Shown piece by piece: positions 40,741 through 54,275 of a stretch of DNA of 64,000 nucleotides. The position numbers and the translations under genes were made by a program. The stretch spans positions 21,915 through 85,914 of the forward strand of contig CANGLD010000001.1 in the NCBI GenBank assembly GCA_947454475.1. Reading direction: 5' to 3'. Positions within the stretch are counted from its first letter, which is position 1; each line of letters starts with the position of its first letter. Under the pieces are notes generated by a model that worked only from the letters and a program-made list of their open reading frames with translations, searched no databases and was not told the origin of the DNA. The stretch comes from Oxalobacteraceae bacterium. GTDB lineage: Bacteria > Pseudomonadota > Gammaproteobacteria > Burkholderiales > Burkholderiaceae_D.

Positions 40741-41793
40741 ATGTCACTCATTCCTACCACCATACTCACTGGCTTTCTCGGCGCTGGTAAAACTACTTTA
40801 CTCAATCGCATACTGCATGAAGCGCATGGACAAAAAATCGCCGTTATTGAAAATGAATTTGGTGAAGAAAATATAGACAATGAAATTCTTGTACAAGACA
40901 GTCGCGAACAAATTATAGAAATGAATAACGGTTGTATCTGCTGCACTGTGAGAGGTGATTTAATCGCAGCGCTGAGTGAGCTTGCACGCAAACGATTAGC
41001 TGGTGAACTCCATTTTGATCGCGTAGTGATAGAAACAACCGGCTTAGCGAATCCCGGCCCTGTTGCGCAGACTTTTTTTATGGATGAAGAAATCGGTACG
41101 CATTATTTATTAGATGGCGTCATCACCATCGTCGATGCTAGCCATGCAATGCAGCAGCTAGATCAATATCAAGAAGCACAGCGACAAATTGGTTTTGCAG
41201 ATCGTATGCTGCTCTCAAAAACTGATTTAGTCGAAGCGAATCAACTAGCCGCATTAGAAACACGACTAAAACGCATTAATCCTCGCGCGCCTATTGGGAA
41301 AAGTAATTTTGGCACCTCGCCCATCGCGGAAATTTTCGATATACGCGGCTTTAATCTGAACGAGAAATTAGAAATTGATCCCGATTTTTTAAAGGCTGAT
41401 GAACATACCCATGATTGTGATGATCACTGCGATCACGATCATGATCATGCTGCACACCATCATCACCATGATCATGCTGGACATACTCACACTGATGAGA
41501 TTGCTGCCTTTGTCTTTCGGAGCGACCAACCATTTGACCCCGCGCGCCTAGAAGAATTCGTAGGCAGCATCGTCAAAGTTTATGGCCCTCGTATGCTGCG
41601 CTACAAAGGCATACTCTGGTTACAAGGTGCAGAACGTAAAGTTATCTTCCAAGGCGTGCATCAGACTATGGGGAGCGATCTGGGGGCAAAATGGAGCGCG
41701 GAGGAAAAAAAGGGAAGCAAAATCGTGTTTATTGGACAAGCATTGCCAAAACAGATATTTCTGGAAGGCTTAGAACAATGCCTGATTTCATAG
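40741..41793 (+). CDS. CobW/YjiA-type metal-associated GTPase with His-rich loop
   Basis: TILTGFLGAGKTTLLNRIL Walker A; NGCICCTVRGDL metal motif; HTHDCDDHCDHDHDHAAHHHHHDHAGHTH. Confidence 0.94.
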   Translation: MSLIPTTILTGFLGAGKTTLLNRILHEAHGQKIAVIENEFGEENIDNEILVQDSREQIIEMNNGCICCTVRGDLIAALSELARKRLAGELHFDRVVIETTGLANPGPVAQTFFMDEEIGTHYLLDGVITIVDASHAMQQLDQYQEAQRQIGFADRMLLSKTDLVEANQLAALETRLKRINPRAPIGKSNFGTSPIAEIFDIRGFNLNEKLEIDPDFLKADEHTHDCDDHCDHDHDHAAHHHHHDHAGHTHTDEIAAFVFRSDQPFDPARLEEFVGSIVKVYGPRMLRYKGILWLQGAERKVIFQGVHQTMGSDLGAKWSAEEKKGSKIVFIGQALPKQIFLEGLEQCLIS

Positions 41794-42183
41794 GGTTTTC
41801 GCAGCTCACTTAGCCTAAGAATGGTACTAATTCCTTGATTCAAATACATTTTCCACTAAAGAAACATTTAGTCCATTGATCAATGCCAGCATAAAATTTT
41901 AGGCGCAAAGTGACCAAAAATAGATTAAATACTCATCACGACTAGCCACAAAGCCATTACAATAGCCCCCGATTTTAAAAAACCGCTGCACCTCACATTG
42001 TGACGTGTAGCACCAAGCAGTAAATTTGGCTGCTATCTGGTTACACATAGATGGAAGTCGAGTTCTGCAAAGTAGGGCGAGTGATGTAGTGAACAATCAC
42101 TGGCAAAATCGTGCAACTCTGACAGCAATATGTTGTTAGGGGATCTAGGACGAATGATTGCTTAGTTTTGAAAGTAGGCGACG

Positions 42184-42636
42184 GTGGCAACTAATACTAA
42201 AACTCCAACCTCCTCTGCGGCTGATGGCGCACAGCTCACAGACGAACAGATAATGAAAATGAGCGAACAGGATTATATGAATCCTGTGCAATTAGCTTTT
42301 TTCAAAAGCCGACTGCAACAGCTTGAAAAAGATTTATTGAAGAATGCTGGCGAGACAACGGAACACTTACGAGAAACCGTACTGGTACCCGATCCAGCAG
42401 ATCGCGCCACTATAGAGGAAGAACATGCTCTTGAATTACGTACGCGCGATCGCGAACGTAAGCTGCTGAAAAAAGTACAGCAGTCAATTGTCGCGATAGA
42501 TTCTGGTGATTATGGCTGGTGTGAAGAAACCGGAGAGCCCATCGGCATTCCACGTTTGCTTGCACGACCAACTGCGACACTATCTCTTGAAGCGCAACAA
42601 AGAAGAGAACTCAAGCAAAAACTCTACGGCGATTAA
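42184..42636 (+). CDS. dksA: DksA-family RNA polymerase-binding factor, Cys-poor
   Basis: AIDSGDYGWCEETGEPIGIPRLLARPTATLSLEAQQRREL: DksA globular domain with only one of four zinc-finger Cys; GTG start. Confidence 0.9.
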   Translation: MATNTKTPTSSAADGAQLTDEQIMKMSEQDYMNPVQLAFFKSRLQQLEKDLLKNAGETTEHLRETVLVPDPADRATIEEEHALELRTRDRERKLLKKVQQSIVAIDSGDYGWCEETGEPIGIPRLLARPTATLSLEAQQRRELKQKLYGD

Positions 42637-42657
42637 ACTTCGTAGCTCAGCACTGAA

Positions 42658-42684
42658 CGGGTGTCACCTTATTTGGGGCACCCG
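42658..42684. terminator. weak hairpin between convergent dksA and TonB receptor genes
   Basis: CGGGTG / CACCCG stem; no strong T-run. Confidence 0.35.
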
Positions 42685-42726
42685 CTTCAATATCTTCATG
42701 CCTCACCTCTACCGCACTTGGTTTTT

Positions 42727-44679
42727 TTAAAACCGCGCTCTAACTCCTAGCACTATATTTCTTCCCGGCTGAGGCAATACGTCTTTTAGTAATGAAGTAG
42801 AAAGTCGTATTTCTTCATTCAATAAATTCCGCGCAAGTACAAACCAAGTCAGATCTGTTGTTCCCATTCTCTGCACATAAGACACACTAGCATCTACTCG
42901 TGTATATCCTTGGGTAATGGTTTCAGTCGAAGCAAATCTATCGTGCGCATTCGTTTTTATAATCGACAGTGAAGAACGCCATTGCTTGGCTTGATTTCCT
43001 AATTCAGCGCCAGTACGCATTGCAGGCTGTAGAGGTAAATTTCCTAACTGATCTAATGTGCCACGTGAATTATCAGCAAACAAGCGACTAAACCAACCGG
43101 CTTCATTTAAGTTGTAACTCAACTCTGCTTCAAAACCCCGCAATGTTGCATCAGCTTGTTTGAAATTTCTGTCTATGAATGACGGATCATTCGTATTGCC
43201 ACCCACCTCGCCATAAACAAAATTCTTAACTTTGTTTTGAAAAACATTGAGTTTCCAGCGAAGTTTTTCTGCATTTTTTTGCAATGATAAATCGAAATTA
43301 TTCGATGCTTCTTTTTTTAACTCTGCATTTCCAACATCAAAAGTCTCGGTAGGATGATGCGGTCCATGTGAATACAGTTCTTCAGCAGTCGGGGCGCGCT
43401 CAGCTACAGACGCAGTGAAACCTAATCCATAACCCGGCACAAAAGACCATAAAGCTCCTGCAGAATAAGAACGTAATTGAAAATATCGACTACTACCTGT
43501 TACGGGATTGCGTGCAGCTCCTTCAACACGCGCTCCCAAGTTTAATCGCACCTTGCCGAATTCTTGTTCTTCAACGATAAATGCTGCATTCGAAGTAGAA
43601 CGTGTATGTGGCACTGTAGGAAGTTGTGACGGATCACTCATCATAGTTTGCACTGCAGTTGCTTCTGTTTGCAAACCTAACTTACCTCGCCAACCAGCCA
43701 TGGGGGTATGCGCTAACTCCCAGCGCGATTCAGTTGAATGACTATCAAATCTAATAGTAGGATTACTACCATTTTCTAATTCAGTATGTTGATAATCACT
43801 ATGCGCAAGCTTAATACGCATGGACTCTATGCCATCGAAAGGTGTTTTAACCAAACTATCTACATCAATACGCGTCTGTGACATATCAATTTTAGATTTT
43901 TCATCGCGACCATGTATGCCGTAAAGTTTATTCAATTGCGAAATTGAGGCGCCAACAAAGCCCCATTCTTTGATTGATGAGGCACCAAAGCCCAGAGTAT
44001 TTTCATGATTACCAGTGAAACTCAGTGGTGTATTAGTAACAGGCACACGATAGTCTCCAGCATTTAGCACGCCAGCATCTACATGCAATCCCATCGTGCC
44101 GACTGCGCCATCTCCAGATACATGCAAAGCAGTGCCATGATCAACACTACTCAAGCGCAGCTCTGACTCACCTGTGAATTGTTTTTCAAGAACAGTCGGT
44201 ATCCTGTCATTGACTATATTCACCAAGCCACCTATCGCTCCTGAACCATACATGAGCGCTGCAGGGCCACGTAAAATTTCAACCTGACGCGCGGTCGAAA
44301 TAGCACTACCCACTGCATGATCACTTGAAATGGAAGACAAATCAGAAGTGCTCATTCCATTCTGTAAAATCTTGACTCTGGCACCATCCAATCCACGAAT
44401 CACAGGACGCGAAGAACCTGCACTAAATCCTGACGTACTCACACCCAACTCTTTACTCAAGGTCTCACCTAAAGAGCCACCCAACTTATCGTGCAGCTCA
44501 TCTCCAGCCAAAACCTTAGAGGGAGTCAAAATCATAGCGTTGTCATCACTACTGAAAGGATCTGCCGTTACAACAACCGGGGCAAGACTATTCGTCTGCT
44601 GTTGAGCTAGGGCTTGTATTGCAAATGCGCTTAAAGCACAGGCAACTGCATGCGCCATTACATTGTTATGCAATGTCAT
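42727..44679 (-). CDS. TonB-dependent outer-membrane receptor, ZnuD-like
   Basis: Plug domain: GGSLGETLSKELGVSTSGFSAGSSRPVIRGLDGARVKILQNGMSTSDLSSISSDHAV...EILRGPAALMYGSGAIGGLVNIV; YSHGPHHPTETFDVG. Confidence 0.85.
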   Translation of the reverse strand: MTLHNNVMAHAVACALSAFAIQALAQQQTNSLAPVVVTADPFSSDDNAMILTPSKVLAGDELHDKLGGSLGETLSKELGVSTSGFSAGSSRPVIRGLDGARVKILQNGMSTSDLSSISSDHAVGSAISTARQVEILRGPAALMYGSGAIGGLVNIVNDRIPTVLEKQFTGESELRLSSVDHGTALHVSGDGAVGTMGLHVDAGVLNAGDYRVPVTNTPLSFTGNHENTLGFGASSIKEWGFVGASISQLNKLYGIHGRDEKSKIDMSQTRIDVDSLVKTPFDGIESMRIKLAHSDYQHTELENGSNPTIRFDSHSTESRWELAHTPMAGWRGKLGLQTEATAVQTMMSDPSQLPTVPHTRSTSNAAFIVEEQEFGKVRLNLGARVEGAARNPVTGSSRYFQLRSYSAGALWSFVPGYGLGFTASVAERAPTAEELYSHGPHHPTETFDVGNAELKKEASNNFDLSLQKNAEKLRWKLNVFQNKVKNFVYGEVGGNTNDPSFIDRNFKQADATLRGFEAELSYNLNEAGWFSRLFADNSRGTLDQLGNLPLQPAMRTGAELGNQAKQWRSSLSIIKTNAHDRFASTETITQGYTRVDASVSYVQRMGTTDLTWFVLARNLLNEEIRLSTSLLKDVLPQPGRNIVLGVRARF

Positions 44680-44705
44680 TTTTTCTCCAAAACCAAATTC
44701 ATGAA

Positions 44706-44734
44706 AACAGCAGACATTTACGATGACTGCTGTT
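44706..44734 (-). terminator. intercistronic hairpin between small membrane gene and TonB receptor
   Basis: AACAGCAG-a-CAT-ttacg-ATG-a-CTGCTGTT; short T-run on the minus strand. Confidence 0.45.
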
Positions 44735-44745
44735 AAAAATTTGAA

Positions 44746-45093
44746 TTAGGAGAGGGTAGGCGGAGCGCGAGAAGAAAAAAATCCAGTAAAAACTGGTAGC
44801 CAGAAAGCTAACGGGAATGTAGTAACGGCCTCATTAGGAATGCATCCAAAATCTGCAGAAAAATAGGGGGTATGTAGATTGGCGCCATGCGTTACTGCAT
44901 CCAGTACTACGCAAGCGCTCGATTTTTTTACATGATCAAAAACGACAAATGCGACTTCTTGCTGCGAAGTGGCGACATGCTCTTGACTATTGCTGAAATG
45001 CGCAATGGCATGCCACTGACCTAGCCACTGGCAAAAAACCAGCGCTATCAGCAACAAACCTAAACATGCTTTATGGCGCAACGCAAAACGCAT
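44746..45093 (-). CDS. small exported/membrane-anchored protein upstream of ZnuD-like receptor
   Basis: MRFALRHKACLGLLLIALVFCQWLGQWHAIAHFS hydrophobic N-terminus with His/Cys pattern; start likely 45093. Confidence 0.6.
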   Translation of the reverse strand: MRFALRHKACLGLLLIALVFCQWLGQWHAIAHFSNSQEHVATSQQEVAFVVFDHVKKSSACVVLDAVTHGANLHTPYFSADFGCIPNEAVTTFPLAFWLPVFTGFFSSRAPPTLS

Positions 45094-45343
45094 TATTTCT
45101 CGATATTTAATAAAAAAATCGGTCAATATTTCCTAACGACATCTGATCTTACACCAAAGTAGTCGGGATTTAATAGTCATTCAGGGAGTTATCCCTCTAG
45201 AAAATCCACAAAACTGATCCTTCTAAAATTCTGTTTTTCTATTTTTAGTCATTATTGTTATCTACCTCATATGGCTATGTTAGCCGATCATAAAATTTAC
45301 AAACAATCATCGCGTTAATTCTGATGAATAGCTTAGGTATCTC

Positions 45344-46495
45344 GTGAAAATTTTTGCACTTTTAAAAAAACCTGGATTGAAATCCGGTCAAGATAAATTA
45401 AGTACACGATCGACACTGCATAGTCGATCAGAAGAGACTTTTAAAAAAATTGATGCCATTGAGTGTGAAATGTCTGCTGAATTTGAAGCAAGTTTTTCGC
45501 CTTCGCTAGCTCAGTCTTCTCAACTAGCAGCGCAAGAAAATTCTTTTCCCCATCAAATAGAAGAAGCTGCTGTGCTTTACGCTAGCGGGCAAGAAAATGC
45601 AGCGAAAATTTTACTTCATCATTTAACGCAACAAGAAACTTCCAGTAGATTTCAAGAACAATTAGTTTGGTGGATGCTATTTGATTTACTGCAAATACAA
45701 GGAGCCCATCAAGAATTTGAGCAACTCTCAGTCAAATACGCAGTCCGATTTGAAACATCACCGCCACAATGGACTCTTACACCAGCCTACAAAAAAAACT
45801 ATCCATCATTTAGTGAAAAAATAATTTTTCGTGGAAAGCTGAGTAGCGAAAATGATATAGCGTTTGATCATTGTCGTAAAATTAATATTAAAAATAAAAA
45901 AATTGAATTCGCTTTAGATCATATCAGTGAGTTAGATAATTCTGGCTGCGAAGCTTTACTCAATTTTTTCTTGCTATGGCAATCACAAGGTTGCGCAATT
46001 ATTTTGACTGGCACTGAGCACTTCATCAAATTGCTACATGCCTCTGTTAAATCTACACCGCCTTTAGCGTGTCATAGCACATGGTTGTTACTCATAGAAG
46101 TGATAAGACTACTCAACGATGAATTTGAATATGAAGAAGTCTGTATGAGTTATAGCCTCACCTTTGAAGTCTCACCTCCACCATATAGCCCTCCACTGGG
46201 CATTCATCTCATACCATCCACAACTGAATTCCTGCTGCCGCCCATCATAGAATCACCATTGCATCAATTAATTGACCACATCACTAAGCATGCGCAAAAT
46301 CAAGCTACACTATTGTTAGATTGTTCTTCTTTAGTGAGAGTCAGTTTTAATGCTGCAGCTCCGTTCTTAGAGGCGCTCTCAGCACTAGGCCAGCACAAAA
46401 CGGTAGAATTACGAAATGCAAATTTTCTTGTTTCAGTTCTCTTAAAACTCATAGGTGGCAATAGTCAGCTTTCTATTTTTACGCATAGACTGTGA
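45344..46495 (+). CDS. protein with two STAS-like domains and an internal duplication
   Basis: Two homologous segments WWMLFDLLQIQGAHQEFEQLSVKYAVRFETSPPQW and WLLLIEVIRLLNDEFEYEEVCMSYSLTFEVSPPPY, each followed by a STAS-like stretch. Confidence 0.7.
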   Translation: MKIFALLKKPGLKSGQDKLSTRSTLHSRSEETFKKIDAIECEMSAEFEASFSPSLAQSSQLAAQENSFPHQIEEAAVLYASGQENAAKILLHHLTQQETSSRFQEQLVWWMLFDLLQIQGAHQEFEQLSVKYAVRFETSPPQWTLTPAYKKNYPSFSEKIIFRGKLSSENDIAFDHCRKINIKNKKIEFALDHISELDNSGCEALLNFFLLWQSQGCAIILTGTEHFIKLLHASVKSTPPLACHSTWLLLIEVIRLLNDEFEYEEVCMSYSLTFEVSPPPYSPPLGIHLIPSTTEFLLPPIIESPLHQLIDHITKHAQNQATLLLDCSSLVRVSFNAAAPFLEALSALGQHKTVELRNANFLVSVLLKLIGGNSQLSIFTHRL

Positions 46496-46618: not shown

Positions 46619-47155
46619 ATGGAACAGTTTCACGGTACAACCATACTCTCGGTAAGACGCGGCCACGTTGTAGCGCTAGGTGGTGATGGCCAAGTTACGC
46701 TCGGCAATATCGTCATGAAAGGATCGGCGCGCAAAGTTCGCAAACTTTTTCATGGCAAAGTACTAGCCGGCTTTGCTGGTGGTACTGCGGATGCTTTTAC
46801 CCTGCTTGAAAGATTTGAAGCGAAATTAGAAGCCCACCAAGGTAATCTCATGCGCTCATCTGTTGAATTAGCTAAAGACTGGCGTACTGACCGTATGTTA
46901 CGCAGATTAGAAGCCATGCTCTTAGTAGCAGATCGCGATGCAACGCTCATTATCACGGGCAATGGCGATGTACTTGAACCTGAAGATGGTATTGGTGCCA
47001 TAGGCTCAGGCGGAAGTTATGCGCAGTCTGCTGCCAAAGCTTTGCAAGAAAATACCTCTCTTTCGCCTTTAGAGATAGTAAAAAAATCTCTCACGATTGC
47101 ATCGCAGCTTTGCATTTATACCAACATGTCACACACCATAGAGACCTTAGAATAA
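46619..47155 (+). CDS. hslV: ATP-dependent protease subunit HslV
   Basis: [53 protein letters not shown]. Confidence 0.98.
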
Positions 47156-47164
47156 AAAATTTTT

Positions 47165-48505
47165 ATGAACCTCACCCCCCAAGAAATTGTTAATGAACTC
47201 GACAAACATGTCGTAGGACAAAGTCGCGCGAAACGTGCAGTAGCGATTGCATTACGTAATCGCTGGCGTCGCATGCAAGTGCCGCATCCTCTGCAACATG
47301 AAATTACGCCAAAAAATATTTTAATGATAGGACCAACAGGCGTAGGCAAAACAGAAATTGCACGGCGCCTCGCTAAATTAGCTGATGCACCTTTTATTAA
47401 AATCGAAGCAACTAAATTTACTGAAGTCGGTTATGTGGGACGTGATGTCGATACCATTATTCGCGATCTGACCGAAATCAGTATTAAACAAACGCGCGAA
47501 ATAGAAATACGTAAAGTAAAAGAAAATGCACAAGATGCAGCAGAAGATCGCATACTCGATATATTGCTTCCGCCCGCAAGAGATTTTGGTTTTACCAGCA
47601 GTTCTCAAGGTGAGGAAGAAAAATCTGATACCACCACACGACAAACATTTCGCAAACGCTTACGCGAGGGCTCATTAAATGAGCGCGAAATAGAAATTGA
47701 AGTGCAAGAGCCGCGCGCTCAAATGGAAATTATGGCGCCACCCGGCATGGAAGAAATGACGGAACAAATTAAGTCTATGTTTTCTGGCCTAGGGCAGGGA
47801 CGCAAAAAATCGCGCAAAATGAAAATAGGCGATGCTTTAAAATTACTCATAGAAGAAGAAGCATCGCGACTAGTAAATGAGGAAGAGTTAAGGCAATTAG
47901 CCTTACATAATGTTGAACAAAATGGCATTGTTTTTTTAGATGAAATCGATAAGATTGCATCGCGCTCAAATACTTCGGGCGTCGATGTCTCTCGTGCTGG
48001 TGTGCAGCGTGATTTACTACCATTGGTTGAAGGTACAACCGTGAACACAAAATATGGCATGGTCAAAACCGATCATATTTTATTCATTGCTTCAGGTGCT
48101 TTTCATTTAGCCAAACCTTCCGATTTAATTCCTGAGTTACAAGGTCGCTTCCCTATCAGAGTAGAGCTTGAATCATTATCGATTGCAGATTTTGAACGCA
48201 TACTCACTGCAACAGATGCTTGTCTCACACGACAATATCAAGCACTGCTTGCAACTGAAAATGTTACTGTTACATTCGCAGAAGATGGTATACGACGTCT
48301 TGCTGAAATCGCTTTTTCCGTGAATGAAAAAACAGAAAATATAGGCGCACGTCGTTTATATACCGTAATGGAAAAACTATTAGAAGAAATTTCATTTTCT
48401 GCGTGCGCAGAGCATGAAAGTAGCGTTGAAATTACTGCTAGCTATGTAGATGAAAAATTAGGTGCTTTAGCTGTGAATGAAGACTTATCGCGTTATGTCT
48501 TATAG
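47165..48505 (+). CDS. hslU: ATP-dependent protease ATPase HslU
   Basis: [63 protein letters not shown]. Confidence 0.98.
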
Positions 48506-48748: not shown

Positions 48749-49312
48749 TTAAGGCTTTTTATTCTCTGTATTTTGTAAAGCGTCTGGGCTCATCGCATTA
48801 CTGCCACCTTCTAATTGTGAAGGTGATACTCTTGCATCTCGTTGTTGTCCTAGTATCGCAGCTCTATTCATGTCATTTGCAGTCGGCATATTCGGTATGG
48901 TGATCGATGATGATGACATAAAAGGTGAAAGTGGTATCTCGCGTCGCCATCCATGATCTAATACCATCACAGAGTTAGCATGAATCTCTTGCAAGAACAG
49001 CCCCGGCATAAATTCTGCATCACGCCGTATCATTCGTGGCGCTGACCCCGCTATACCTAATATCGCTACACTGTCTGTTGGCGTGCCCGATAAAATTACA
49101 CCTCTTAGTATTAACGGCACACGACTCTCATTATTTGAACTACCGCCAAATAAACTCGTTGCTTCAGACAACGAAACTTCATTGATATCATTCTCAGGTA
49201 ATAAGCTCACTTTTTGCGAAGTTGGTGCCATAAAAAATAAACCCCAATACGTTAGCGATGCGCAAATTAATAAAAATAAAAGCGCACTCCATGCTTGAGA
49301 AATTTTCTTCAT
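48749..49312 (-). CDS. gspC: type II secretion system protein GspC (short form)
   Basis: N-terminal TM plus homology-region segment LFGGSS...VPLILRGVILSGTPTDSVAILGIAGSAPRMIRRDAEFMPGLFLQEIHANSVMV; last gene of gsp cluster. Confidence 0.82.
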   Translation of the reverse strand: MKKISQAWSALLFLLICASLTYWGLFFMAPTSQKVSLLPENDINEVSLSEATSLFGGSSNNESRVPLILRGVILSGTPTDSVAILGIAGSAPRMIRRDAEFMPGLFLQEIHANSVMVLDHGWRREIPLSPFMSSSSITIPNMPTANDMNRAAILGQQRDARVSPSQLEGGSNAMSPDALQNTENKKP

Positions 49313-49363
49313 TTTTTACTCACCTAAGTACGTGGCGTATCACTGCAATGTAGTTAATTCTCA

Positions 49364-50593
49364 TTATCGTACTAGCTGATTGATTTCTATAATAGGCATT
49401 AGCACAGCCAATACGATGAGCAATACCACCACGCCCATTCCTAGTATCAATGCTGGCTCTAGTAAACTTGCTATCGTCATAGCGCGTCGCTCTAACTCTT
49501 GTTCTTGTGTATTTGCGACTCGCTTTAACATAGCGGGTAATTCGCCAGTCACTTCGCCTGCTCTAATCATATGAATGAGCAAAGGAGGAAATTGTTTATA
49601 GCTCGCAAGTGCATGCGCCAAACTAGCGCCTTCGCGCACTCGACTGGTTGCTTGCGCAATAAACTGTCGCATAGCCAGATTAGAAAGCGTGTCTTGACTA
49701 ATTTGCAAAGCTCTCAGTATAGGTACGCCTGAATTCGTCGTAATAGATAAGGTACTTGCAAAGCGTGCTGTATTTACACTGCGCTCAAACGCTCCATAGA
49801 ATGGCGCTGTCAGCAACCAAGTATGCCAACGAATTTTAAATGCCTTATTTTTTAATAAGTGTCGCCAAATCATGACTGAACTTAAAATAACAAGCAGCAG
49901 TAACCATCCCCAGTACCGAATAAAATTTGAGATGGCTAACATCACTATCGTTAGTAATGGCAACTGCTGTTTTGAATGAATAAAAACAGCAACGATTTGT
50001 GGCACGACATAAGTCAGCAAAAAAATAACAATTGCTAACGCGACTACCGTCACTATCGCAGGGTAAGTAAATGCTAAACGCATTTTCTGTACGAGTGCTG
50101 CGCGTCGCTCACTATGATCTGCCAATCTAACTAGCACACCAGCTAGCTGACCTATCTGCTCACCAGCAGCAACCAGTGCTCGATAAATATCGCTGAAATC
50201 CGCTTTATGTTGTGCTAAGGCGCTAGACAATGAAGTACCGCCCATGACTTCAGATCGAATAGTAGCTACAAGATTTTTTACATAAGGTCGTTCCGCTTGC
50301 TCTTGCAAGGCAAATAAAGCGCGCTCTAATGGCAAACTCGCTTCTAGTAAGGAGGCGAGTTGACGTGTAAATAAAGATAATTCTGTAGACGATAGTTTTT
50401 CTGCAAACAAATCAAAAAAAAGTATTTTTTTTAGCTTTGCGTGTTCTTTATGACTATCACTCGTTTCCAGGAATACAGTAAGCAATCCTCGGGAACGCAA
50501 ATCAGCACGTGCTGCACGTGGATTATCTGCAATGACCGTGCCTTGCAATGTCACGCCTGCTTGATCAACTGCCTCATATAAAAATACAGGCAT
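49364..50593 (-). CDS. gspF: type II secretion inner-membrane protein GspF
   Basis: ELSLFTRQLASLLEASLPLERAL; FASTLSITTNSGVPILRALQIS; MIRAGEVTGELPAML. Confidence 0.95.
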   Translation of the reverse strand: MPVFLYEAVDQAGVTLQGTVIADNPRAARADLRSRGLLTVFLETSDSHKEHAKLKKILFFDLFAEKLSSTELSLFTRQLASLLEASLPLERALFALQEQAERPYVKNLVATIRSEVMGGTSLSSALAQHKADFSDIYRALVAAGEQIGQLAGVLVRLADHSERRAALVQKMRLAFTYPAIVTVVALAIVIFLLTYVVPQIVAVFIHSKQQLPLLTIVMLAISNFIRYWGWLLLLVILSSVMIWRHLLKNKAFKIRWHTWLLTAPFYGAFERSVNTARFASTLSITTNSGVPILRALQISQDTLSNLAMRQFIAQATSRVREGASLAHALASYKQFPPLLIHMIRAGEVTGELPAMLKRVANTQEQELERRAMTIASLLEPALILGMGVVVLLIVLAVLMPIIEINQLVR

Positions 50594-50595
50594 GT

Positions 50596-52041
50596 TTACT
50601 CTTTTGTCACACGCAGTAACTCTGACTGACTGGTACTACCGTTAAGCAACCAGCGCACCCCATCTTCTCGCATTAATTTCATACCATCTCGTTGCGCACT
50701 GGCTCGTATCTCTGCCTCTCCAGCTCTGTCATGAATTTGTCGTCTTATCCGCTCTGTCGTTAGCATTAATTCATAAATACCTAAACGACCTTGGTAGCCA
50801 GTCTGACTACATTTTGCACATCCCACTTCACGACTATACATACCCTCTTTTTGACGACAATAAATACATAATTTTCTGACCAATCGTTGTGCTATGACGC
50901 CTAGCAAAGAAGAAGACAATAAGAAAGGCTCAATACCCATATCGAGTAAACGTGTAATAGCGGCGGCGGCATCATTGGTATGTAAGGTGGCTAATACTAA
51001 ATGCCCTGTTAGTGAAGCTTGAACTGCGATTTGCGCTGTTTCTAAATCGCGTATCTCCCCTATCATGATGACATCAGGATCCTGCCGCAAAATCGCTCGC
51101 AAGGCTTTTGCAAATGTCATTTCTATACGCGGATTAACTTGTGTTTGACCGACACCAGCTAATTCATATTCAATAGGATCTTCAACAGTGAGTATATTGG
51201 TTGTACTTGCATTTAATCGTGACAGCGCTGCATACAATGTGGTGGTTTTACCTGAGCCTGTGGGTCCAGTCACTAATATGATGCCGTGTGGCTGTGTAAT
51301 TAATTGATCGAATTGTTTGAGCGTTGCCTCACTCATACCCAACTGCTGACAATCTAGACGACCACCTTCTTTATCTAATAATCGCAATACCGCACGCTCA
51401 CCATGACCTGTGGGTAAAGTCGAGACCCTGACATCAATCGGCCTACCACCTATACGTAAAGTAATGCGTCCATCTTGTGGCAATCGTTTTTCAGCAATAT
51501 CCAGATCGGACATGATTTTTATACGAGAAATCAATGCGGCATGTATTGTTTTTTTTGGTCTGACTATGTCTCGCAAACGACCATCTATACGAAATCTGAC
51601 GACCGAGATCTGATCGAATGGCTCTATATGTATATCTGAAGCGCCTTCGCGCACTGCTTGAGTCAATAATGCATTTATCATGCGAATAACAGGTGCATCA
51701 TCTGCAGAATCCAAGAGATCTTCTACTGCAGGCATTTCTTGTATAAGTCGCGCCAAATCATAATCTGCCTCATAAGCATCAATCACTTGTGCTGCATCAT
51801 TACCTGAACCTGCATAGGCAAGCTTGATAGCATTGTCTAATTCCAGTGGCGTCACTTTATTTAGTAGCACGCTACCGTAGCGTCGACTTATTTCAGCCAC
51901 TGCTGTAGTCGGGGTTGATTCTGTTATCCAGCAAGTGATGCCGTCCTCTTGATTTTCATTTGCTTGCGCAAGAATAAAAAAATCTCTGGCATACGCAAAA
52001 GGCAGTAAACGTGATCGCTCGCTAAGATTCATATTGATCAT
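50596..52041 (-). CDS. gspE: type II secretion ATPase GspE
   Basis: REGASDIHIEPF; GIILVTGPTGSGKTTTLYAAL; LRQDPDVIMIGEIRDLETAQIAVQASLTGHLVLATLHTNDA; zinc motif CIYC..CAKC. Confidence 0.97.
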   Translation of the reverse strand: MINMNLSERSRLLPFAYARDFFILAQANENQEDGITCWITESTPTTAVAEISRRYGSVLLNKVTPLELDNAIKLAYAGSGNDAAQVIDAYEADYDLARLIQEMPAVEDLLDSADDAPVIRMINALLTQAVREGASDIHIEPFDQISVVRFRIDGRLRDIVRPKKTIHAALISRIKIMSDLDIAEKRLPQDGRITLRIGGRPIDVRVSTLPTGHGERAVLRLLDKEGGRLDCQQLGMSEATLKQFDQLITQPHGIILVTGPTGSGKTTTLYAALSRLNASTTNILTVEDPIEYELAGVGQTQVNPRIEMTFAKALRAILRQDPDVIMIGEIRDLETAQIAVQASLTGHLVLATLHTNDAAAAITRLLDMGIEPFLLSSSLLGVIAQRLVRKLCIYCRQKEGMYSREVGCAKCSQTGYQGRLGIYELMLTTERIRRQIHDRAGEAEIRASAQRDGMKLMREDGVRWLLNGSTSQSELLRVTKE

Positions 52042-52106
52042 TAATTTTTTTAATCAACACATAGCTGTTTAATTAAAATTCGTATTAAATTCCGTATTAA
52101 ATAAGT

Positions 52107-54275
52107 TTATTCAGGTGAGATAAATTGATCCGGAAAGTAGTACGGAGATTTTTTAAGTAAAGCACCGCCTACTGGTTTTCCATTTTGCAAAGGAGGTAAT
52201 CTCGGCTCTTCAGACTGCGGCAAAAAGATATTTTTTTCTGACTGCGTATTTCCTTGTGCTGCTTGTATATAGTCATAACGATCGCCTGCAACAGCAACAC
52301 TTTCATTATTTGACCGAATTACAGTAGGCCGTAGAAACACCATAAGGTTGGTCTTGCCACGTTTTTTAGATTGATAGCGAAATAAATATCCTAGTAAAGG
52401 AATATCACCTAATAAAGGGACTTTTTCTACGCTATCACTCAGGGTATCTTCTATCAAACCACCTAACACGACGATTTGTCCGTTATCGACTAATACATTC
52501 GTATCAATTGAACGCTTACTGGTAATTAATCCCGAACTAGTCGATTCTTGTATATTGGATGTCTCTTGATAAATCGACATTTTGACAGTGCCGCCCTCAG
52601 AAATTTGTGGCCGCACACGCAATGACAAACCTATATCACGTCGCTCTATGGTTTGAAATGGATTGACACCAGCACCACCACCTGATGCTGGCGTCGTAAA
52701 TTGCCCTGTAATGAATGGCACATTCTGACCCACAATAATGCGCGCCTCTTCATTATCTAGTGTGATTAAATTAGGCATAGATAAAATATTTGCTTTGGTA
52801 TTGCTCTCTAATGCACGCGCCAATGCACCTAGTGTTAGCTGACCATTCATTTGTTTAAATGCGCCCACGTTAATACCATTGCCAAATGGTAGTGCTGTTT
52901 GATCTTTACCTAAGATGGATGTCGCTTGCGTAGCAAGATTATTTCCGCCTGAAGAAAAACCCGTTAATACACCCACACGCAACCCATTATTTGTATTCCC
53001 CGATAAGCCTGCCCATTGCACACCAAATTCAGCTGCAGTATTCGCAGAGACTTCCACAATTAAGGACTCTACATACACCTGTGCTCGTCTTGCATCTAAC
53101 TGATCAATAATGATGCGTAAATTACGATAAGTCGTTTCATTCGCAGTGATGATTAATGTATTTGTTGTCGGATCGGCTTGTATGTATCCCGCCATTCCTC
53201 CGCTGGCTAGTGGGGCTTGATTTAATGCAGGCGATGAAACAAGTGCAGTAGGCGCATTGACATTCACAGATGGAGCACTCAATGAATTTTGCATCAACGA
53301 TGCTGGCTGCCCAGCATTCCCATTAGCATTAGCATTAGAATTCATATTCTGATTTGCTGCGCCAGCCTCACCCAGAACGACAGCACGTAACACTTGTGCA
53401 AGCTTGACTGCTTCTGCATTTTTTAAATAAACCACATGCACATTCCCTGGCAAGGCAGTTGGTTGATCTAGTCGTGTAATTAATGATCGCGCTAAATTCC
53501 CTTTAGCTGATGTAGGCGCACGAAGTATCAAACTATTCGTACGCGCATCTGCAAGTAAAAAAACTCTACCCCCATCATTTGCGCCGGGTGTATTTAGTCC
53601 AGCACCTTGATCAAGTAAACGATTAATCATGAATGCCATATCCGTTGCTAGGGCATGCTGAACTTTAATAATATCTAACTCACCTATCGTTGGGACATCT
53701 AATGCCGCAACTATGCGCGACAATCTTTTTAAATTGTCAGCATAGTCTGTAATAACGAGTGTATTTGTTGCTGGATTTGCGTTGATTGCATTATTTGAAC
53801 TTACTAAGGGGCGCAATATAGTGACCAAACCTTGTGCGGATTCATGATTGAGTTTAATAACCTGCGTAGCAATTTGATCGCCTTTTACAGCGTCTGCAAT
53901 CACTGGACTTGCTTGCTGCTTTGCCTCTGCTTCAGGTACGACTTTTGTAAATGTGGACATACGCACCACAGCATAGGCATTCAGTCTCAAGACCGAAGTC
54001 AGCATATCTAAGGCCTGTGCTTTACTCACCGGTTTTTCTGAAACGAGATTAATCGTTCCTTTGACACGAGGATCAATCACAAAAGTCGTGCCCGTGTAAT
54101 GGCCTATTGCTCTTATGACTGTTTCTATATCCGCGCCCACAAAATTCATGATGGCTAGATTTTTATCAGGCTCTTGCGCCAAACAAGAAAAACTGAATAG
54201 GGTGTTCCACAAAAAAAACCCCCTTAAGAAAAATTTAAACATGGCTACAAGAGAAAAACGTGAAATAGATTTCAT
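52107..54275 (-). CDS. gspD: type II secretion secretin GspD
   Basis: NFVGADIETVIRAIGHYTGTTFVIDPRVKGTI; VYVESLIVEVSANTAAEFGVQW; VVLGGLIEDTLSDSVEKVPLLGDIPLLGYLFRY. Confidence 0.97.
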   Translation of the reverse strand: MKSISRFSLVAMFKFFLRGFFLWNTLFSFSCLAQEPDKNLAIMNFVGADIETVIRAIGHYTGTTFVIDPRVKGTINLVSEKPVSKAQALDMLTSVLRLNAYAVVRMSTFTKVVPEAEAKQQASPVIADAVKGDQIATQVIKLNHESAQGLVTILRPLVSSNNAINANPATNTLVITDYADNLKRLSRIVAALDVPTIGELDIIKVQHALATDMAFMINRLLDQGAGLNTPGANDGGRVFLLADARTNSLILRAPTSAKGNLARSLITRLDQPTALPGNVHVVYLKNAEAVKLAQVLRAVVLGEAGAANQNMNSNANANGNAGQPASLMQNSLSAPSVNVNAPTALVSSPALNQAPLASGGMAGYIQADPTTNTLIITANETTYRNLRIIIDQLDARRAQVYVESLIVEVSANTAAEFGVQWAGLSGNTNNGLRVGVLTGFSSGGNNLATQATSILGKDQTALPFGNGINVGAFKQMNGQLTLGALARALESNTKANILSMPNLITLDNEEARIIVGQNVPFITGQFTTPASGGGAGVNPFQTIERRDIGLSLRVRPQISEGGTVKMSIYQETSNIQESTSSGLITSKRSIDTNVLVDNGQIVVLGGLIEDTLSDSVEKVPLLGDIPLLGYLFRYQSKKRGKTNLMVFLRPTVIRSNNESVAVAGDRYDYIQAAQGNTQSEKNIFLPQSEEPRLPPLQNGKPVGGALLKKSPYYFPDQFISPE

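Follow-up and report, generated by a model that had tools for sequence, protein, structure and literature searches.

A two-STAS protein with duplicated FimV-type helical modules is encoded directly before hslV in Burkholderiales

In the genome of an Oxalobacteraceae bacterium, the genes for HslUV, the bacterial relative of the proteasome, are directly preceded by a gene whose product had been sketched in a preliminary description as a two-STAS protein built by internal duplication. To our knowledge HslUV has no established adaptor, and the locus raises the question of what kind of protein this is and what its place beside hslV means. We analysed it within a window of 64,000 nucleotides, i.e., the whole stretch of DNA under study, to which the coordinates below refer, together with relatives of the protein from other genomes. 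The features of the locus are:

45344..46495, + strand: whole gene, 383 aa, GTG start (dN/dS in close pairs of relatives)
45344..45370, + strand: conserved N-terminal tip MKIFxLFxK, aa 1-9 (mean pairwise identity 0.57, 24 relatives)
45413..45490, + strand: predicted helix aa 24-49, including the conserved motif TxxKIDAIExEM (alignment of relatives, structure model)
45545..45628, + strand: predicted TPR-like helix pair aa 68-95 (IEEAAxLxAxGQ..A), within the coverage of the FimV-type module profile
45647..45772, + strand: helical module 1, aa 102-143, C-terminal end FETSPPQW (repeat, model, FimV-type profile)
45812..46054, + strand: STAS domain 1, aa 157-237 (Pfam STAS; family profile matches MlaB structures)
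46061..46186, + strand: helical module 2, aa 240-281, C-terminal end FEVSPPPY (repeat, model, FimV-type profile)
46220..46492, + strand: STAS domain 2, aa 293-383 (Pfam STAS_2 aa 307-371, E 1.5e-6; 24/24 relatives)
46619..47155, + strand: hslV, 123 bp downstream of the STAS gene, the conserved neighbour
47165..48505, + strand: hslU, next after hslV; relocated in three families

The open reading frame is intact, and its GTG start lies at the same position in most same-genus relatives. From the N-terminus, the product comprises the tip, the helix with the KIDAIExEM motif, the TPR-like helix pair, module 1, STAS 1, module 2 and STAS 2, with the modules ending in FETSPPxW and FEVSPPxx, respectively, across the family. 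Mean identity among 24 relatives is 0.45-0.57 in the tip, coil and helical modules versus 0.32-0.38 in the STAS parts. In close pairs of relatives dN/dS is 0.11-0.23; the protein is therefore under purifying selection in these relatives. By eye, no membrane-like hydrophobic stretch was recognized in the 383 aa, and the protein is probably cytoplasmic.

The two 35-residue segments previously singled out as related lie exactly at aa 109-143 and aa 247-281 of the product, and share 10 identities and 23 positives. Their ungapped score of 70 compares with a maximum of 41 in 200 shuffles of the protein, and local alignment of the two halves of this single sequence scores 71 against a mean of 26.7 and a maximum of 61 in 5000 shuffles. 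With 24 relatives included, a profile-profile comparison of aa 60-236 with aa 237-383 gave an E-value of 6.2e-20 (prob 99.2); the helical parts taken separately gave 1.4e-16 (prob 98.8) and the STAS parts 7.5e-8 (prob 94.5). Since the scores exceed all shuffles and the profiles of the halves match at this level, chance likeness is ruled out and the duplication of a helical plus STAS unit is real. Both units are present in every full-length relative inspected.

Both beta/alpha stretches proved to be STAS domains, as had been proposed. In the window protein itself the Pfam matches fall just under the curated cut-offs (STAS_2, aa 307-371, 28.7 bits against 29.2; STAS, aa 181-225, 20.2 bits against 22.6); among the relatives, STAS_2 is matched by 24/24 (best 2e-17) and STAS by 19/24 (best 1e-10). 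An AlphaFold2 model built from three sequences (pLDDT 65, pTM 0.41), which we used for the order of elements only, shows the same succession twice, two helices followed by a beta/alpha domain with a STAS-like fold. A Foldseek search with this model retrieved Bacillus subtilis RsbV with prob 1.00 and a TM-score of 0.62 on the target, at a weak E-value of just 0.016. The Pfam profiles thus place the protein in the STAS superfamily, and the fold model, of low to medium confidence, is consistent with this. The family profile further matched the MlaB structures 6xgy, 6xbd and 6zy2 over the STAS 1 part at E-values of 0.002-0.003, and the curated models mlaB_1 and ant_ant_sig found weak matches in 10/24 and 8/24 relatives, respectively; with the window protein as a single query, NCBIfam and PDB searches returned no match.

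Neither MlaB nor the SpoIIAA/RsbV type accommodates the family. The family shares the STAS fold with MlaB, which among solved structures and curated models is closest to STAS 1. However, MlaB is a lone STAS domain of about 100 aa encoded in the mla operon with a threonine at the switch position (PMC7367683), whereas the family has two STAS domains, no conserved switch residue, TPR-like modules and an adjoining hslV; the window protein has no NCBIfam match, and no mla genes adjoin the STAS gene in the window. Thr52 of MlaB, the equivalent of the switch residue, is located where MlaB meets MlaF and may serve in regulation (PMC7367683); it has no fixed counterpart in either STAS domain here. With SpoIIAA/RsbV, too, the fold is shared, but the two-domain chain with its helical modules differs from these proteins in lacking a conserved phosphosite: across 24 relatives, the residue before the G of STAS 1 is S, I, A, P, F, D, E, G or V and the matching STAS 2 position is N, S, T, G or V, such that neither domain has a conserved phosphorylatable Ser/Thr at the SpoIIAA-type switch position. 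In the genome, which is 88.8% complete, we found neither a SpoIIE phosphatase nor a small RsbW/SpoIIAB-type anti-sigma kinase frame; HATPase_c_2 matches occur only in frames of 438-629 aa, which from their length are probably ordinary kinases.

What had been called a helical linker can be described more specifically as a TPR-like, FimV/HubP-type module. Outside Burkholderiales, the family profile matched the C-terminal part of FimV_N-bearing frames of about 700 aa (E-values 3.7e-11 and 3.3e-10), which also give a weak FimV_core match. In the reverse direction, a profile of the FimV-type module alone found the family proteins, covering both helical modules in members; the window protein was recovered at an E-value of 3.4e-12, and no shuffled decoys were among the matches listed. 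Detection in both directions indicates, at the level of sequence profiles, that the module is common to this family and the C-terminal region of FimV/HubP-type LysM landmark proteins. The likeness extends to the module end, P-x-W (SPPxW in the family), but FimV/HubP proteins also possess LysM, FimV_N and a transmembrane segment, which are absent here (in Pfam and NCBIfam searches the 383-aa protein matched neither LysM nor FimV_N), and the module is here repeated, each copy being followed by a STAS domain. FimV itself is encoded at another place in the genome. The C-terminal TPR domain of HubP is thought to be its main client-binding interface (PMC12918733).

Full-length matches, defined as those above 110 bits and counted from the search table, were found in 102/250 sampled Burkholderiales genomes, and none was seen outside Burkholderiales in a class sample of 274 genomes. 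One further genome has the gene split over two frames (L149, 3794-5003, an interrupted copy); two other loci carry an in-frame TAG (L009, 361-1512) and a frameshift (L026, 1474-2621), and these three are decaying genes or assembly errors. In some genomes the gene has been cleanly lost between dksA and hslV (L151, L154). Four genomes encode single-STAS relatives of about 235 aa (L145, 1093-1791; L146, 1147-1842; L147, 1120-1866; L148, 306-1890, the last with two tandem copies), in which helices, a STAS domain and a helical module ending ISPPSW succeed each other. They are made of the same module types and align with STAS 1 and helical module 2 of the family (E-values 1e-14 to 1e-16), but differ in having one STAS domain and no adjacent hslV, and they may resemble the unit as it was before duplication. 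In L145 and L146 the single-STAS gene lies directly downstream of a RelA/SpoT-type gene; this adjacency is confined to one genus and does not hold in G163 and G200, and we discarded it as a functional link.

The position beside hslV is no accident: in 110/117 loci of distinct sequence the gene is followed directly by hslV in the same orientation, with a median gap of 75 bp and nearly all gaps below 260 bp. The pair persists where hslV has no adjoining hslU (L087, L099, L112, L114, L115, L118, L121, L125, L126, L133-L136); in the ten such genomes that were checked, belonging to families f5, f38 and f43, hslU has a different genomic location and the STAS gene is still paired with hslV. No terminator-like site was found in the 123 bp before hslV in the window. 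Because the gene almost always stands directly before hslV, both probably take part in one and the same process, concerned with stress or protein quality; long-lasting gene order can, however, mean no more than a shared promoter. The gene is not found only where HslUV is found: 4/102 carriers (G065, G067, G099, G210) keep it without HslV or HslU, showing only ClpX-like partial matches, and conversely 93 genomes have HslV without the STAS gene (of 191 with HslV, 98 are among the 102 carriers). The protein's link with HslUV, if any, is therefore optional, and it is not an obligate HslUV subunit. Across loci, identity to the window's copy is 72-95% for HslV versus about 21-43% for the STAS-gene protein.

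The other side of the gene is more variable. In the window, 40741-45126 holds a zinc-acquisition-like cluster of a His-rich CobW-type GTPase, DksA, a ZnuD-like TonB receptor (matching the ZnuD model at E 1e-113, below that model's cut-off) and a 126-aa ORF. The DksA (42184-42636) is missing most of its C4 zinc-finger cysteines (WCEETGEPIG...ATLSLEAQ), which we take to fit the description of zinc-independent DksA paralogues. The earlier view that no kinase, phosphatase, sigma factor or transporter partner is adjacent is correct in the window as far as cytoplasmic STAS partners go, with the qualification that the ZnuD-like receptor is encoded upstream on the other strand. Among 61 wider loci, about a fifth have cobW and dksA upstream, and others have xerC, an MsbA-type ABC gene or further genes; dksA, present in just 12/61, was rejected as a constant neighbour. 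In 16/61 the upstream place is taken by a gene for an outer-membrane protein, a ZnuA/AztC-like gene and often an AztB/ZnuB-like gene, and in 11/61 the STAS gene is closely preceded by a zinc-type ABC permease gene, one of these loci being in a genome without HslV. A search for the Zur-like site TGTTATANTATAACA, allowing up to 3 mismatches, found none in the window, and Zur-type control was set aside for want of a consensus site there. Beyond hslU, the minus strand at 48749-54275 carries Type II secretion genes (GspC-like, GspF, GspE and GspD, assigned by eye).

The preliminary description had ended on an uncharacterised scaffold or regulator, which stands as a type of protein, the function itself being what we infer. 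The reading we prefer, tentatively and at something short of an even likelihood, is that of a duplicated TPR-like/STAS scaffold that acts independently of phosphorylation. It would have arisen by duplication of a unit consisting of a FimV/HubP-type TPR-like module ending in S-P-P and a STAS domain; the TPR-like modules would hold on to clients, and the STAS domains would form stable contacts that do not depend on a Ser/Thr phosphorylation switch like that of SpoIIAA/RsbV. Its expression would be coupled to that of the HslV protease, and it would probably have a role in the stress or protein-quality process that HslV serves, e.g., in gathering or presenting proteins, with contacts not confined to HslUV because the gene outlives HslUV in some genomes. 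A narrower possibility, which we regard as unlikely, is a dedicated HslV/HslUV adaptor or gate regulator that would bind HslV or HslU, either to bring clients or to control activity. The nearly invariant adjacency, the survival of the pair after hslU relocation in three families and the presence of TPR-like modules, which are typical client binders, would all suit such a role; against it stand the four genomes that retain the gene without HslV and HslU, the 93 HslV genomes that lack it and the much lower conservation of the STAS-gene protein than of HslV.

An equally doubtful option is a partner in FimV/HubP-type polar organization, which would compete for or bridge FimV clients, such as type IV pili, the flagellum or c-di-GMP enzymes. 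The reciprocal homology of the helical module and the client-binding part ascribed to the HubP TPR domain speak for it, and FimV_N was found in every full-length carrier checked; however, FimV_N is present in 223/250 Burkholderiales genomes anyway, so that co-occurrence says little, TPR-like modules are widely reused, and no pilus or flagellar gene was recognized among the recurrent neighbours. Less probable still is a STAS regulator of an ABC transporter, acting as MlaB does for MlaF, possibly on an upstream-encoded zinc importer: MlaB provides the best curated and solved STAS relatives, and the 11 loci with a zinc ABC permease gene, including the one without HslV, would fit, but most loci, the window included, have no adjoining zinc ABC genes, and the window has no Zur-like site. 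A classical anti-sigma factor antagonist working by partner switching is highly improbable. It could draw on the RsbV-like fold and the weak ant_ant_sig matches, but the phosphoserine position is variable in both domains, neither SpoIIE nor a small RsbW/SpoIIAB-type frame was found in the genome, and no anti-sigma kinase, phosphatase or sigma partner was recognized among the recurrent neighbours; classical partner switching is accordingly unsupported.

The kinds of domain involved are already known, but their combination and the linkage to hslV were not found in the literature searched, which yielded nothing on STAS together with hslV, hslU, FimV or tetratricopeptide; the BPH proteasome paper mentions neither STAS nor a partner gene. 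NCBIfam has no model for the family and Pfam recognizes just its STAS domains, and PGAP presumably labels the members "STAS domain-containing protein". The protein is thus real, conserved, unstudied and betaproteobacterial, and it joins client modules of the FimV/HubP type to STAS domains, the pairing being duplicated in one chain, an architecture for which we found no description. In the boldest version, to which we give little weight, it could be the first dedicated HslUV partner, a betaproteobacterial scaffold in which FimV-type modules and phosphorylation-independent STAS domains would recruit clients to HslV or regulate it. With a conserved, unmodelled protein encoded before hslV in much of the betaproteobacteria, also where hslU has moved away, whether HslV has partners becomes directly testable.
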